A DNA stretch of 64,000 bases from Alistipes sp. (GTDB taxonomy: Bacteria; Bacteroidota; Bacteroidia; Bacteroidales; Rikenellaceae), in contig JAGBIC010000029.1 of assembly GCA_017935185.1 (NCBI GenBank), forward strand, positions 34,702 through 98,701, written 5' to 3'. The notes beneath the pieces are model-generated. The model worked only from the letters and a program-made list of their open reading frames with translations. It did no database searches and was not told where the DNA came from. Shown here in pieces: positions 28,658 to 32,693 of this stretch. Both the position numbers and the translations under genes were made by a program. Each line of letters starts with the position of its first letter. The first letter of the stretch is position 1.

Positions 28658-28707
28658 AATCTATTTTGTTTTTACGCCTGACGGTATTCGACAAGCAAAT
28701 AATTATA

Positions 28708-28739
28708 CAAAGTTACGGATTTTTCAGGATAATACCAAA
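28708..28739 (-). promoter_or_regulatory. Promoter of ftsY
   Basis: TAACTTTG on the minus strand (complement of 28708-28715) and TTTG (complement of 28736-28739) with a 20-base spacer, about 50 bases before the start codon. Confidence 0.65.
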
Positions 28740-28776
28740 TATTAAATTGTGGTGCAATTCCCCACCGAGAGTGTTG

Positions 28777-28805
28777 TTTGTTTTGCGGAAAAATTTATAC
28801 CTTTG
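28777..28805 (+). promoter_or_regulatory. Promoter of structured RNA copy 1
   Basis: TTTG (28777-28780) and TACCTTTG (28798-28805), spacer 17 bases. The start of transcription is expected near 28811, in front of a small ACCGAG/CTCGGT hairpin. Confidence 0.6.
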
Positions 28806-28810
28806 TAAAA

Positions 28811-29070
28811 CCGAGGTCGTGTTCTCGGTAGACATATTTTATAGAAAGTGTTTTCGCGCACTCCTTGTTAGAAAATGTGGAAGTTTTCATTAGTTGGAGG
28901 TCGAACGAACAACACTCATTTCTTGTTTAGCATATGGTGTGGGCGCAATTATTGCGTTCGTAATCTCCATATCTATTCAGGTGTGGGGTATTGCATCGTT
29001 TATTCCAACTGGGGTCTTTCCACAACCTTCTAACAGATAAACGAAATCAACTCCACACTTTCTGTTTTTA
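28811..29070 (+). ncRNA. Structured RNA of unknown role, copy 1
   Basis: The gap between ftsY and the YkvA-like gene holds an RNA-like element with nested helices: AGAAAGTGT/ACACTTTCT (28843-28851 with 29055-29063), TTGTTAGAA/TTCTAACAG (28865-28873 with 29028-29036), TGTGGAAG/CTTTCCACA (28876-28883 with 29016-29024), AGTTGGA/TCCAACT (28892-28898 with 29004-29010), and an inner hairpin around 28943-28957. A T-rich end follows (29061-29069). A second copy at 31.99 kb keeps these pairings with different bases. It may belong to a known Rfam class such as Bacteroidales-1; I cannot test this. It ends 70 bases before the YkvA-like ATG. Confidence 0.7.
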
Positions 29071-29140
29071 TATAATCATCATTTTAGGGGTTGGGACGAG
29101 GTAAGAAATAGAATTATATTAACCTAAACATTTAACTTGT

Positions 29141-29485
29141 ATGGAGAAAAAAGTACCAAAGGATGTTACTTCTTATGAGAAGTATTATTCAGAATCAGGA
29201 TTTTGGAAGAAGGCCAAGTCGCTTGGTAAGAAGGTGTTGAAGCCCGCCTTGTTGCTTTTTTATGTAATGAAGTCACCAAGTACACCACTTGCTATTAAGA
29301 CTGCAATAGCAGGAGCATTGGGGTATTTGATTTTGCCATTGGATTTAGTTCCCGATATTATACCTGTGGCAGGATATGCAGATGATGCATCAGCTTTGGC
29401 TGCAACCGTGAAAATGTGTCAAGCACATATAACGCCCCAAATTGAGCAACAAGCGAATGCCAAGTTGAACGACCTTCTTGGATAA
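29141..29485 (+). CDS. YkvA/DUF1232 family membrane protein
   Basis: A 114-residue protein with the DUF1232 core: hydrophobic AIKTAIAGALGYLILPLDLVPDIIPVAGYADDASALA, centred on the LPLDLVPD motif (about 67-74). The N-terminal 35 residues are basic. The function of the family is not established. The gene stands alone, after structured RNA copy 1 and before a terminator, inserted where ftsY would normally meet DUF4295. Its third-position use is somewhat more AT-rich than that of the ribosomal genes beside it. Confidence 0.85.
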   Translation: MEKKVPKDVTSYEKYYSESGFWKKAKSLGKKVLKPALLLFYVMKSPSTPLAIKTAIAGALGYLILPLDLVPDIIPVAGYADDASALAATVKMCQAHITPQIEQQANAKLNDLLG

Positions 29486-29506
29486 AAATTGCTTCAACGC
29501 CCACAC

Positions 29507-29541
29507 AAAAAAAGGCGCACCCTATTGGATGCGCCTTTTTT
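29507..29541. terminator. Bidirectional terminator between the YkvA-like gene and DUF4295
   Basis: AAAAAGGCGCA and TGCGCCTTTTTT pair around a short loop with A/T runs on both sides, placed between converging genes. Confidence 0.8.
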
Positions 29542-29570
29542 GTATTAAACCTTAAGGTCTAATGCAAAAA

Positions 29571-29729
29571 TTATTTCTCAGCGAAGTAAGCCTTGATGTC
29601 AGCCTCCTCAAGAATGTTCTGAGTCTTGAAGATGTAAGCACCGGTCTTCTCTGATTTCACCATCTTGATGCACTTGGTGTACTTCTTGTTGGTACCCGTC
29701 TTAAGGGTTGCAACTACTTTCTTTGCCAT
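29571..29729 (-). CDS. DUF4295 small basic protein
   Basis: A 52-residue Lys-rich protein, MAKKVVATLKTGTNKKYTK at the N-terminus and ending DIKAYFAEK. It belongs to the Bacteroidetes family DUF4295, which is nearly always encoded with bL33 and bL28. Its size, charge and place suggest a ribosome-associated protein, but that is inference. It follows rpmG by 13 bases in the operon rpmB-rpmG-DUF4295. Confidence 0.88.
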   Translation of the reverse strand: MAKKVVATLKTGTNKKYTKCIKMVKSEKTGAYIFKTQNILEEADIKAYFAEK

Positions 29730-29742
29730 AACTTACAAAAAA

Positions 29743-29925
29743 TTACTTAATTTCACGATGTACTGTAACCTTCTTCAAGTAAGGATTGTACTTCTTACGC
29801 TCCAAACGATCGGGTGTGTTCTTCTTGTTCTTGGTGGTGATGTAGCGTGACATACCTGCAACGCCAGACTCCTTCTGCTCGGTGCACTCAAGGATCACCT
29901 GAACTCTGTTACCTTTCTTTGCCAT
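29743..29925 (-). CDS. rpmG: 50S ribosomal protein bL33
   Basis: A 60-residue large-subunit protein: [20 protein letters not shown] at the start, then [21 protein letters not shown], which is the bL33 signature. Only one Cys is present (Cys14), so this is the non-zinc form. It follows rpmB by 16 bases. Confidence 0.95.
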
Positions 29926-29941
29926 TTCTCCTTAATAAATT

Positions 29942-30175
29942 TTAGTAAACCTTCTTGGGAGCAGCGGCCTCCTTAAGAGCGGCAGCCAAGCCCTTCTTGT
30001 TAATAGTTTTCATACCGGCAGCGGTTACTCTCAAAGTAAACCAGCGGCCCTCCTCCTCTGACCAGAAGCGCTTTGTCTTCAAGTTAGTGTTGAACTTACG
30101 CTTGGTCTTGCGGTTTGAGTGAGAAACATTGTTACCCACTACTGCGGTTTTACCCGTAATTTCGCAAACTCTCAT
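29942..30175 (-). CDS. rpmB: 50S ribosomal protein bL28
   Basis: A 77-residue large-subunit protein with the family opening [20 protein letters not shown] and the block RRFW-like [22 protein letters not shown]. It is the first gene of rpmB-rpmG-DUF4295. A promoter partly built from short AATTC repeats lies upstream. Confidence 0.95.
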
Positions 30176-30219
30176 CTGTTTTTAATTTTTAGTTCTTAAT
30201 CCCTCACAATAAGGGTGCG

Positions 30220-30251
30220 CAAAGATACGTAAAATAAATTCAAAATTCAAA
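30220..30251 (-). promoter_or_regulatory. Promoter of the rpmB operon
   Basis: TATCTTTG on the minus strand (complement of 30220-30227) and TTTG (complement of 30248-30251), spacer 20 bases. The -33 element falls within the short tandem repeat at 30236-30269. Confidence 0.6.
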
Positions 30252-30269
30252 ATTCACAATTCAAAATTG
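30236..30269. repeat. Short tandem AAAATTC repeat
   Basis: About five copies of a seven-base unit, AAAATTC with one variant (ACAATTC), lie between the divergent rpmB and GH30 genes. Such units often vary in copy number; here one unit supplies the -33 element of the rpmB promoter. Confidence 0.6.
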
Positions 30270-30340
30270 TTGGTTTTTGGCAAAAAAAGTTGCGAGAGTG
30301 GATGGTGTGGGCGGTTTGATATGGGAGATAAGCAACTTTT

Positions 30341-30372
30341 TTTGTCTTCAACGAGATAAATCGCTATATTTG
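30341..30372 (+). promoter_or_regulatory. Promoter of the GH30 gene
   Basis: TTTG (30341-30344) and TATATTTG (30365-30372) are 20 bases apart, 25 bases before the ATG. Confidence 0.7.
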
Positions 30373-30397
30373 TAACAAATCAAAAATATATAATGCT

Positions 30398-31837
30398 ATG
30401 AAGAAGATAATCGCGTTGATGGTTTCAACCTTGCTGTTGGCAGGTTCTGTGATGGCGCAGGAGCAGGTTGCTGTAAAAATCGATAAGCAGCAGCGTTGGC
30501 AGACCATCGAGGGGTGGGGTAGCTCGCTATGCTGGTGGGCACACATGTGTGGTCGCTGGGACGAGAAGACCATCGACGAGCTGCTTGACCTGATTACATC
30601 GAAAGATGGTCTGAATATGAACGTCTTCCGTTACAATATAGGCGGTGGCGATGACCCCTCGCATGCCGATGGCCATATGGTAAAAGGCAAGGGCAAGCGT
30701 GCCGAGATGGAGGGTTTCAAGGCTTCGGCCGATGCTCCCTACGATTGGAGCGCCGACGAGGGGCAACGTAAAATTATGCTTAAAATCAAGAAGTTGCGCC
30801 CCGATGCTGTTTTTGAGGCATTTTCAAATTCGGCTCCCTACTGGATGACATACAGCGGTTGCTCGGCAGGCCATCAAGACCCCATGAAGGATAACCTGAA
30901 GCCCGAGTATTACGAGATGTTCTGTGACTATCTTATAGATGTCTGCAAACACTATAAAGAGGAGTACGGCATCGAGTTCAAGACCCTTGAGCCTTTCAAC
31001 GAATCAACGAGCAATTATTGGTATAATCAGGGCTCGCAGGAGGGTTGCCATTTCGATGCAGAGAGTCAGGTGAAGCTTCTGCGTGTGCTATACCCCAAGT
31101 TGCAGGCCTCGGGGCTGAAGACCGTTATTGCCGCCTCTGACGAAACCAATCTGCGTTCGGCAATCAAGGTCTGGAAAGTCTATTCGCAGTATCCCGATAT
31201 TATGGATATGGTTAAGCAGTTTAACACCCACACCTATTCGGGAACAAACAGCGAGCGTATGGAACTCAATAAATTGGTGTCAAGCACCGATATGGAGTTT
31301 TGGCAGTCGGAGTCTGGCCCGCAGTGGGATAACGAGTTGCGCCCCAAAGGGCCGAGCGTATTCGAGAATAACCTCTATTTGGCCAAAAAACTCTTCCGCG
31401 ATATGCGCATCATGCGTCCGCAGGCGTGGCTCGATTGGCAGCTGGTTGAGGAGATGAGTGAGACATGGAGTCAGATTAAGGGTAACTTCGCAACGGGCAA
31501 GTATACTATTCTTAAAAACTATTATGTCAGAATGAATGTTACCCGCTTTATCAAGCAGGGCTACACACTGCTCGTTACCGAGAATGAGAATACTTTGGCG
31601 GCCATTTCGCCCGACGGCAGGGAGTTTGTCATTGTTTTGTTGAATGTCGAGCAGGAGGCTTATGATGCCAATATAAATCTGTCTACTTTCGGCAAGGTTG
31701 CATCAAAGGCGAAGGTTTATCGCACTTCAGAGAAGGAGAATTGTCAGGAGCTGGCTGCGGTGTCAATCAGCGACAAGCAGTTGAGTTATCGTGCCGAGCC
31801 GATGAGTATCACTACCATCGTGGCAAAGGTGAAATAG
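30398..31837 (+). CDS. GH30-like glycoside hydrolase (beta-1,6-galactanase type)
   Basis: A 479-residue secreted enzyme with signal peptide (cleavage after about AQ, residue 20-21). It shows the GH30 fold: QTIEGWGSSLCWWAHM at the start of the barrel, the acid/base Glu202 in LEPFNEST and the nucleophile Glu305 in FWQSESGPQ, then a C-terminal beta-sandwich (about 390-479). The overall pattern is closest to endo-beta-1,6-galactanase-like GH30 members acting on arabinogalactan side chains; other beta-glycosides are possible. It has its own promoter and terminator and no transport partner nearby. Confidence 0.82.
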   Translation: MKKIIALMVSTLLLAGSVMAQEQVAVKIDKQQRWQTIEGWGSSLCWWAHMCGRWDEKTIDELLDLITSKDGLNMNVFRYNIGGGDDPSHADGHMVKGKGKRAEMEGFKASADAPYDWSADEGQRKIMLKIKKLRPDAVFEAFSNSAPYWMTYSGCSAGHQDPMKDNLKPEYYEMFCDYLIDVCKHYKEEYGIEFKTLEPFNESTSNYWYNQGSQEGCHFDAESQVKLLRVLYPKLQASGLKTVIAASDETNLRSAIKVWKVYSQYPDIMDMVKQFNTHTYSGTNSERMELNKLVSSTDMEFWQSESGPQWDNELRPKGPSVFENNLYLAKKLFRDMRIMRPQAWLDWQLVEEMSETWSQIKGNFATGKYTILKNYYVRMNVTRFIKQGYTLLVTENENTLAAISPDGREFVIVLLNVEQEAYDANINLSTFGKVASKAKVYRTSEKENCQELAAVSISDKQLSYRAEPMSITTIVAKVK

Positions 31838-31853
31838 AAAAAATATACTACAA

Positions 31854-31891
31854 TACACAAAAACCTATTCGCAAGGATAGGTTTTTGTGTA
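31854..31891 (+). terminator. Terminator after the GH30 gene
   Basis: ACACAAAAACCTAT pairs perfectly with ATAGGTTTTTGTGT around an eight-base loop, just past the stop codon. Confidence 0.75.
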
Positions 31892-31956
31892 TAATACCCA
31901 TTTCAACAATCGTTAAAATAAATTTATCATATTTCTGACGCGATACCCTAATTGTG

Positions 31957-31987
31957 TTGTTCATATGAATTTTTTTTTGTAAATTTG
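31957..31987 (+). promoter_or_regulatory. Promoter of structured RNA copy 2
   Basis: TTG (31957-31959) and TAAATTTG (31980-31987) with a 20-base spacer. The same arrangement precedes copy 1. Confidence 0.55.
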
Positions 31988-31993
31988 TGACGC

Positions 31994-32250
31994 TATTGTA
32001 CCGCATAGGCGCATAGTAGAACATTTTTACGAAAGTGTTTTCGTATTGTCCAAAGTAGGAAATGTGGAAGTTTTCGATAACAACAGGACTGCGAACAACA
32101 CTCTTCCTTGTATAGTTATGTGACAACGCATTCTGCGAATATCTCATACTATTCAAGTGTGGGGTATCGCGTCGTTTATTGTTGTTATAGGTCTTTCCAC
32201 AACCTCCTACTTGATAAACGAGAGTCAGCTCCACACTTTCTTTTTTTATA
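31994..32250 (+). ncRNA. Structured RNA of unknown role, copy 2
   Basis: This is a diverged copy of the element at 28811-29070. Helices in order: GAAAGTGT/ACACTTTC (32031-32038 with 32233-32240), CAAAGTAGGA/TCCTACTTG (32051-32060 with 32205-32213), TGTGGAAG/CTTTCCACA (32063-32070 with 32193-32201), ATAACAACA/TGTTGTTAT (32077-32085 with 32180-32188), and inner CGCA-TTC-TGCG near 32127-32137. The second, fourth and inner helices differ in sequence from copy 1 but still pair. Conserved loops include ATTCAAGTGTGGGGTA and TCGTTTATT (32151-32180). A T run ends it (32241-32247). It lies 130 bases before the AT-rich gene trio. Confidence 0.7.
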
Positions 32251-32378
32251 CGTTATTAACAACCATCTTAAGGAGCTTAAGAGGCACAACTTCCGTGTTA
32301 TTTATTGTCATAATATGAAATAAATGGAGGAAGCCGAAAATCCGTTAAGAGTAGGCACGTATTAAAAAAAGTAATTTT

Positions 32379-32693
32379 ATGGAAAAACAAAACGTACAAA
32401 TGGGTTGGTGCAAAGCTTCAATGACTTTGGGTGTTATTGCAACTATTCTTTCTCTTCTGCCTTTGCTTAGCGCATGGTTTATGTTCTTAACAACCATCAA
32501 TTATTTATTAGCTCCAATTGGTATCATATGTGGAGTTGTAGCTATCGTAAAATCTCAAAATCTAACAAAATCAATTATTGGATTAGTTCTTTGTGTTTTA
32601 GCTCTTTGCATCCCTTTCCTTCTCTCTGATTATTATCTAGAGAGTGCAGCAGACTCTGTTGATAATATGTTGGATCTAATGGATAATTTTTAA
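32379..32693 (+). CDS. Small membrane protein of unknown function (AT-rich cassette, gene 1)
   Basis: A 104-residue protein with three hydrophobic stretches (about 15-35, 39-58, 64-82) and a polar, acidic C-terminus (SAADSVDNMLDLMDNF). It vaguely recalls small DUF4190-type membrane proteins, but I do not assign a family. Base composition is clearly more AT-rich than its neighbours, with TCA/TCT serines instead of the host's TCG. It is followed by the second cassette gene after 11 bases. It lies downstream of structured RNA copy 2. Confidence 0.65.
   Translation: MEKQNVQMGWCKASMTLGVIATILSLLPLLSAWFMFLTTINYLLAPIGIICGVVAIVKSQNLTKSIIGLVLCVLALCIPFLLSDYYLESAADSVDNMLDLMDNF

Follow-up and report, generated by a model that had tools for sequence, protein, structure and literature searches.

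Leader RNAs of Bacteroidales with two loop strands complementary to promoter DNA: a possible split guide

Background

Riboswitches and other attenuator leaders combine a structured 5' leader with mutually exclusive 3' helices, a terminator-like helix followed by a U tract, and strong covariation. RNA-guided promoter binding is known from exapted CRISPR/TnpB proteins (TldR, and Cas12f with a sigma factor). IS110 bridge RNA is a noncoding RNA before a gene, whose internal loop holds two complementary strands that match opposite DNA strands, and Bacteroidales-1 RNA, from Bacteroidales, has a promoter and a terminator-like end. Here we describe two paralogous structured RNAs, elements 1 and 2, in a 64,000-nucleotide (nt) stretch of DNA from Alistipes sp. 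(contig JAGBIC010000029.1, positions 34,702 to 98,701; hereafter the window, to which all coordinates refer and on whose forward strand all features of the two elements lie), and show that they are members of a 5' leader RNA family of Bacteroidales of about 250-300 nt that is unmatched by Rfam 15.

The two elements resemble riboswitch and attenuator leaders in all the features just named, but they have no match in Rfam, the family occurs in many copies before unrelated genes, and its loops are complementary to promoter DNA. If those loops act as a guide, an RNA strand would pair with promoter DNA and steer transcription as in the TldR and Cas12f systems, although here an arm interrupts the guide, which is part of an mRNA leader, and no such protein was sought or found. 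With bridge RNA the elements share the position of a noncoding RNA before a gene and the two complementary strands; unlike in bridge RNA, both strands are complementary to the same DNA strand, for which reason we rejected this identity. No recombinase is among the 25 of 61 downstream Pfam families that were listed. Neither element is matched by the Bacteroidales-1 model at E up to 10. DUF805b RNA (RF02914) is likewise a short cis-regulatory motif, found near element 2 and near one divergent copy, but it is 35 nt long and a separate family. LoaP-type antitermination leaders, as outlined in PMC12691694, are also leader RNAs acting on termination; they work together with a NusG paralogue, for which no search was made here. 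The 49-bp Alistipes motif before L20, in the outline given by PMC8040213, differs from this family.

A leader RNA family of Bacteroidales

A preliminary description of the window had proposed two independent RNAs of about 255 nt with helices kept by compensatory change. The shared loops, the order of the parts and all three helix pairs that it named can be read in the sequence of both copies, and direct covariation between the two copies holds, with pairing across 60 copies above that of shuffles. Two of these helix pairs are P2 (28865-28873 with 29028-29036 in element 1, 32052-32060 with 32205-32213 in element 2) and P4 (28892-28898 with 29004-29010, and 32077-32085 with 32180-32188), and the third, GCGCAA/TTGCGT in one copy and CGCA/TGCG in the other, is a hairpin of the variable apical arm. 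None of 200 shuffles of either element folds as well as the element itself (z -5.48 for element 1 and -4.84 for element 2). That description did not contain the genes starting at 29141 and 32379, helix P3, the pseudoknots P5 and P6, the alternative helices P9 and P10, a promoter site that we call D, or the further copies.

BLAST with element 1 finds seven places below E 1e-4 in its own genome (both window elements and five further copies) and matches in 22 of 41 related genomes, its own included. The scan of Bacteroidales proposed earlier, with a covariance model of the two copies, was run with a model (R1) of 60 diverse cores, and the conservation found is wide: R1 gives ten matches in the window's genome and at most 30 in any one genome of the genus, 27 of whose 31 genomes have some, and a scan of 295 Bacteroidales genomes turned up divergent relatives in 79 (55 of 184 genera). 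Both window copies are among the 60 model sequences, so that the scores of their cores (28844-29062, from the P1 5' strand to the shared P1/P9 3' strand, 195.6 bits in element 1; 32031-32240, 188.5 bits in element 2) are no independent test. A search of both elements with all Rfam 15 models gave no overlapping match at the gathering threshold, and over 28700-32380 at E up to 10 the overlapping matches were at chance level, the best reaching 17.5 bits (E 3.3). For the 20 of 25 divergent loci checked in Rfam 15 (E up to 0.01), no match overlapped the RNA. Of the two possibilities raised at first, a listed class such as Bacteroidales-1 or a new one, it is the second that these searches favour.

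The core is a stack of P2, P3 and P4 crossed by the pseudoknots P5 and P6 and bearing an apical arm, P7/P8. In 60 diverse copies, P2, P3, P6 and P7 have 91.8% standard pairs against 77.2 ± 0.6 in shuffles and 33-45% when one partner is slid by 1-3 columns, and they carry 282 double changes against 94 in shuffles; the P6 changes in this alignment include compensatory ones. We also parsed 134 copies from anchors; seven copies whose 5' strand could not be parsed were dropped, as was one empty mis-parse. Here P2 makes 8.44 of 9 pairs, against 6.33 with another copy's 5' half under the same optimisation, P3 makes 7.51 of 8 against 6.31 with another copy's half, and P4 is complete (6/6) in 97% of copies against 37% in the control. 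Covariation thus supports P2, P3, P4, P6 and P7. In element 1, P3 is TGTGGAA (28876-28882) paired with TTCCACA (29018-29024), P6 joins TCGTTTAT (28996-29003) to 29037-29044 (family pairing TCGTTTAT/ATAAACGA), and P5 would join CTCC (28861-28864) to GGAG (28896-28899), which overlaps P4 by 3 nt; the 4-mer test of P5 was a weak one (4/4 in 95.5% against 88.5% in the control) and the helix was otherwise read by eye. Being pseudoknotted, P5, P6, P9 and P10 cannot be displayed alongside the rest by single-sequence folding. A 5' hairpin (CCGAG..CTCGG, 28811-28828 in element 1) precedes the core, and the longest 5' stem averages 5.05 pairs against 4.18 in shuffles (128 copies). In two copies, L098 and L128, the 5' and 3' halves are of different helix types and no longer pair in an alignment by eye; they look like chimeras, as if recombined between paralogues.

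The promoter and the T-rich end claimed for the two elements prove to be family features. An exact TAnnTTTG box lies 25-95 nt upstream of the core in 127 of 130 copies, where shuffles predict 8.6, and the 12 nt past the 3' strand hold on average 9.07 T, against 4.0-4.2 further on, in the close and the divergent group alike. (Five of 135 copies were left out here for missing GTGTGGGG, for length, or for having less than 110 nt upstream; in the promoter set, two of 126 without a promoter match were left out and two were too near an edge.) What did not survive is the independence of the RNAs. An open reading frame (ORF) of at least 60 codons follows the RNA in 126 of 134 copies, seven of the other eight having only 18-890 nt left, and in 83 of these 126 the ATG lies 40-69 nt past the conserved 3' strand ACACTTTC. 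We regard the elements as leaders because of this spacing and because a hairpin past the U tract pairs back in 102 of the 134 copies (helix P10). They combine a covarying structure with a fixed position on the same strand before coding sequences, as cis-regulatory leader RNAs do.

Promoter DNA complementary to two loop strands

Upstream of the -7 box, the leader's own promoter contains a site, D, whose sequence is reverse-complementary to two loop strands of the RNA joined without the P7/P8 arm that separates them: the left half of D matches GGGG and the next six bases (seg2) and the right half matches CGAACARCACTC (seg1). In element 1, D (28754-28780) precedes the -7 box TACCTTTG (28798-28805) of the promoter, P_down, and 20 of 22 positions make Watson-Crick pairs (21 with wobble) with seg1, CGAACAACACTC (28906-28917), and with seg2, GGGGTATTGCATCG, which adjoins the P9 5' strand GTGTGGGG in 28981-28998; the covarying P7/P8 arm occupies 28923-28980. 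In element 2, D (GCGATACCC..GTGTTGTTC, 31940-31962) precedes the -7 box TAAATTTG (31980-31987) and matches its own RNA (GGGGTATCGC) at 18 of 22 positions, with seg1 at 32092-32103 and GTGTGGGG plus seg2, GGGGTATCGCGTCG, at 32157-32174.

We compared D with the loop strands in 123 copies (seven of the 130 were out, seg1 being unrecognised in four), 80 of which reach at least 15/22. Within these 80, selected for matching, 731 of the 800 cells of the left half are Watson-Crick pairs, 65 are wobble pairs and 4 are mismatches; the right half is looser, with 744, 92 and 124 of 960. The letters of the left half change together with those of the RNA, as in the types TCTTGT/ACAAGA, ATTGC/GCAAT, TATCGC/GCGATA and CATTGT/ACAATG. 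When place and gap are re-optimised for each pair, D matches its own RNA at a mean of 15.46 of 22 positions, against 13.90 ± 0.21 when RNAs are permuted (reached in 0 of 2000 permutations); this supersedes an earlier control (1475 Watson-Crick cells against 1269 ± 12 permuted) in which the place was not re-optimised, which favours the own match. At least 18/22 is reached with the own RNA in 63 of 123 copies, with the RNAs of other copies in 16.1% and with scrambled strands in 0%. A test of seg2 only gives 8.09 against 7.26 ± 0.06 in 130 copies and 6.40 against 5.98 ± 0.12 in 42 divergent copies (L199, which lacks most of the core, was left out). In the window's genome, each of the seven D sites tested is best, or tied for best, with its own RNA. 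Among the 42 divergent copies a bipartite D of at least 18/24 occurs in 7, against 1.0% of control pairings, and of at least 20 in 4, against 0 of 493, mostly in other letters (L209, L210, L213, L216, L229 and L190), the D of L203 resembling that of the close family. Judged by these comparisons, the match consists of a family-wide complementarity and a copy-specific part, and the putative guide and target are complementary beyond chance and in a copy-specific way. The distance from D to the -7 box is 39-44 nt in 65 of 78 copies (two of the 80 were too near an edge), so that D mostly covers the -33 region.

Site D is also found at promoters with no matching leader behind them. A first pattern gave 9 sites in 25 genomes, 7 of them with RNA, and a wider pattern of D plus the -7 box occurs 82 times in 61 genomes of the genus, and its reversed control not at all. 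Leaving aside three sites that were unchecked for RNA (G727, G733 and G738), 74 of 79 adjoin an R1 match (three cut by a contig end) and five have no RNA; one more D, in L154, lies only 180 nt before a contig end and was not counted. In two species (L152 and L269) the leaderless promoter runs directly into the same phospholipase D-like gene, named by eye, and in L277, L282 and L291 it runs into lipoprotein-like genes. These five sites match leader RNAs of the same genome at best at 18, 19, 21, 20 and 21 of 22 positions (L152, L269, L277, L282 and L291, respectively). At two further loci, L245 and L280, the RNA behind D is a divergent one and scores 11/22, whereas close-family RNAs of the same genomes score 17-19. 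We also observe that a single chromosomal site, with D and the upstream flank unchanged, has the leaderless phospholipase D-like gene behind it in one species (L152) and a divergent leader with another gene in two others (L245 and L280).

A split guide as the favoured explanation

The explanation that we favour, with a probability of about 0.42, is that these leader RNAs recognise promoters through a split guide and tune transcription from promoters carrying D, and that a separate 3' switch acts on their own gene. The pseudoknotted core would present seg1 and seg2 as a guide interrupted by the P7/P8 arm, which would form a hybrid with D in promoter DNA. Its targets would be the leader's own promoter, the best match, and those promoters elsewhere in the genome that have D but no leader. 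The pairing, probably together with a protein partner, would tune D promoters and so link a set of genes, mostly for exported proteins. Separately, the 3' switch strand would pick either P9, with its terminator-like U tract, or P10, with its loop beside the start codon; the G-run that D would capture also belongs to P9. A DNA rather than an RNA partner is suggested by the leaderless D sites, on account of which we lean towards DNA, and also by the D sites before a non-matching leader, the spacing of D to the -7 box and a terminator-like hairpin before D.

Several observations weigh against this explanation. D falls below 15/22 in 43 of 123 copies, and 53.6% of all family RNA/D pairings reach 15/22, so that specificity is partial, and permutation keeps relatedness. 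Wobble cells far exceed mismatch cells in the left half of D, as in RNA:RNA pairing, and 33 of 78 copies have a -7-like (TAnnTTTG-like) box 4-5 nt upstream of D, against 0-9 in 15 shifted windows, as if D began a longer transcript. The five leaderless D sites may have been left behind when leaders were lost: 30 nt before D are common to L152, L245 and L280, which points to one old site, and genes like those at leaderless D occur elsewhere with a leader, as with L277, whose gene is by eye like that of L074. Finally, no RNA-guided effector is known here, and no search was aimed at one.

The 3' switch strand and a sensing attenuator

The next explanation in line, one that we consider possible at well below even odds, is a metabolite- or protein-sensing attenuator of the riboswitch type, in which a ligand would set P9 or P10 and D would be a minor promoter element; it is compatible with either reading of D. 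The size of the RNA, its pseudoknots, the conservation of its loop strands and the mutual exclusion of its 3' helices fit such a device. In element 1 the 3' switch strand TCAACTCCACACTTTC (29047-29062) has parts claimed by P9, P1 and P10, the U tract (29059-29069) lies 3' of P9, and a 3' hairpin (29079-29099) holds the loop GGGGTTG (29087-29093) that pairs with CAACTCC as P10. In element 2 the switch strand CTCCACACTTTC and U tract lie at 32229-32247 and the P10 loop strand GGAGCTT at 32272-32278. Two pairings are open to the strand, one with the core (P9, followed by the U tract) and one with the loop of the hairpin before the gene (P10), and as P9 and P10 share bases they exclude each other. 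P10 is supported both in close copies (102 of 134 reach 7/8 or more, against 58% in the control, and 98 of the 102 are within a stem) and in divergent ones (7/7 in 20 of 42, control 7.9%).

P9 is kept through changes in its letters, as GUGCAGAG/CUCUGCAC in L225, UCGUG/CACGA in L224, ACGUG/CACGU in L195 and GUGUGGAG/CUCCACAC in L209, and it resembles an intrinsic terminator because the T-rich 12 nt follow its 3' strand; termination there would be the expected outcome. Counting against a sensing attenuator, the support for P9 in divergent copies is moderate (8/8 in 19 of 42, against 26% of mismatched pairings), and P1, whose outer half covaries with the tail (3.86 of 4 against 3.57 ± 0.04 in the 42 divergents), gains no clear support in its inner half (3.95 against 3.92 ± 0.02). 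In the close family GAAAGTGT, GTGTGGGG and CTCCACACTTTC are invariant, which is partly a selection effect, although GTGTGGGG is invariant also in the first 33 copies, unselected for it. The downstream genes have no common pathway either: among 124 downstream proteins (cut to at most 340 residues) Pfam finds LRR_5 in 13, DUF4988 in 12, BACON in 7, Collagen in 7 and Mfa_like_1 in 4, the rest being mixed.

D as part of an RNA

The partner of seg1 and seg2 could instead be D as RNA, which we judge unlikely. A longer transcript, begun at D or read through from upstream, would have D at its 5' end, capture seg1 and seg2 and block P9, so that the gene would be read; the short P_down transcript is without D. 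The -7-like box described above, which starts about 12 nt before D, would be its promoter, and the tolerance of wobble pairs, the fact that the own match is best or tied at every D site tested in the window's genome, and the median energies in 80 copies (-15.1 kcal/mol for D:seg2 and -15.3 for D:seg1, against -13.1 for P9) are all consistent with it. On the other hand, 45 of 78 D copies have no such upstream box, and the -33 part of an upstream promoter is hardly enriched (TTG in 24% against 13% of windows). A terminator-like hairpin stands just before D in 28 of 78 copies, against 5 in the preceding 70 nt, and five D sites have no leader in cis while two precede a leader that does not match.

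Turnover of genes and sites

A mobile or recombining promoter-leader cassette, with D as the left edge of the unit, has rather little probability in our judgement. The same site and RNA are found with different genes in L001/L009/L011, L088/L148, L106/L125 and L014/L096, where homology stops +5 to +62 past the 3' strand. In other pairs the same RNA and gene occur at different sites, and in 6 of 11 of these homology starts at -91 to -129, at D; the other five start inside the unit or are not in one block. The right edges vary as well, at the stop codon (L062/L140, L028/L091), within the gene (four pairs) or past it (L087/L147), and no terminal sequence or recombinase turned up, though no search was aimed at them. 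The turnover of genes and sites may be ordinary rearrangement. The slot from the leader of element 1 to the ribosomal-protein cluster (29100-29505 in the window) holds different genes in related species (L001, L009 and L011), with the leader and both flanks homologous.

The first proposal, in which small RNAs of about 255 nt stand alone and the gene is expressed on its own, is the least probable of all and was rejected: it agrees with the own promoter and the U tract but not with the distance to the ATG or with a P10 that lies past the U tract, although short transcripts terminated at about 255 nt may still predominate. We also rejected an invertible promoter, the RNA copy of D being split by an arm, and transposon ends, there being no common right edge.

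Downstream genes and distribution

The gene behind element 1 (29141-29485) encodes 114 amino acids with a DUF1232 domain (PF06803), and that behind element 2 (32379-32693) encodes a hydrophobic protein of 104 amino acids without a Pfam match. By simple tests, 92 of 126 downstream proteins have a hydrophobic N-terminal stretch and 46 of 126 a lipobox-like motif. In 16 copies (L005, L034, L037, L039, L044, L047, L051, L066, L070, L098, L121, L131, L134, L139, L143 and L145) no ORF of 60 codons or more begins until 187-255 nt past the RNA, and a short upstream ORF may stand between the RNA and the gene. A DUF805b RNA lies at 32324-32357, downstream of element 2 and ahead of its gene; another instance of the motif (47 bits) lies 21 nt past the divergent copy in L225, and L223 has a sub-threshold match 1 kb away.

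A letter pattern from the conserved 3' part occurs in at least 112 stretches of GTDB genomes. Among the matches listed, the records carry mainly Alistipes, Tidjanibacter, Rikenella or Rikenellaceae titles, with single records of Bacteroides acidifaciens and Marseilla massiliensis and some other Bacteroidales. The close family appears narrow because the same pattern matches 7 of 393 Bacteroidales genomes and, phylum-wide, 1 of 296, which is the window's own. Alistipes muris DSM 112343 (L088) is a cultured carrier of both D and the RNA; Bacteroides acidifaciens DSM 15896 (L117) has the RNA, with no D by the criteria used and no 60-codon ORF within 330 nt. A close-family copy in a record titled Clostridia (L148) has surroundings 87.7% identical to those of L088 over 1.4 kb, and the record is perhaps mislabelled or contaminated. 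The phage and viral collections gave one record each, too few to argue spread by phage: MT838511.1 (L037, phage-labelled, 5.2 kb) and IMGVR_UViG_2802429514 (L038, a 29-kb viral contig), both of which may be host fragments. Elsewhere in the window, at 483-842, Rfam identifies a bacterial RNase P class A RNA (237.6 bits).

Conclusions

In the open-access literature searched (preprints and subscription journals being outside its scope) we found nothing like a complementarity of this kind between a leader RNA and promoter DNA. A large, many-copy class of leader RNAs of gut Bacteroidales appears to be uncatalogued in Rfam 15, and the genes behind the leaders include those for DUF4988 lipoproteins, BspA-type leucine-rich-repeat proteins and fimbrillin-like proteins. 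The complementarity between the RNA and promoter DNA is kept while the letters change, and it is found at leaderless promoters too, which gives the favoured split-guide explanation a direct prediction for paired base swaps. Tentatively, and with less confidence than we have in that explanation as a whole, the leaders may form a guide-RNA regulon, in which they would bind the non-template strand of their own and of leaderless D promoters and so provide addressed feedback and cross-talk among genes for exported proteins.

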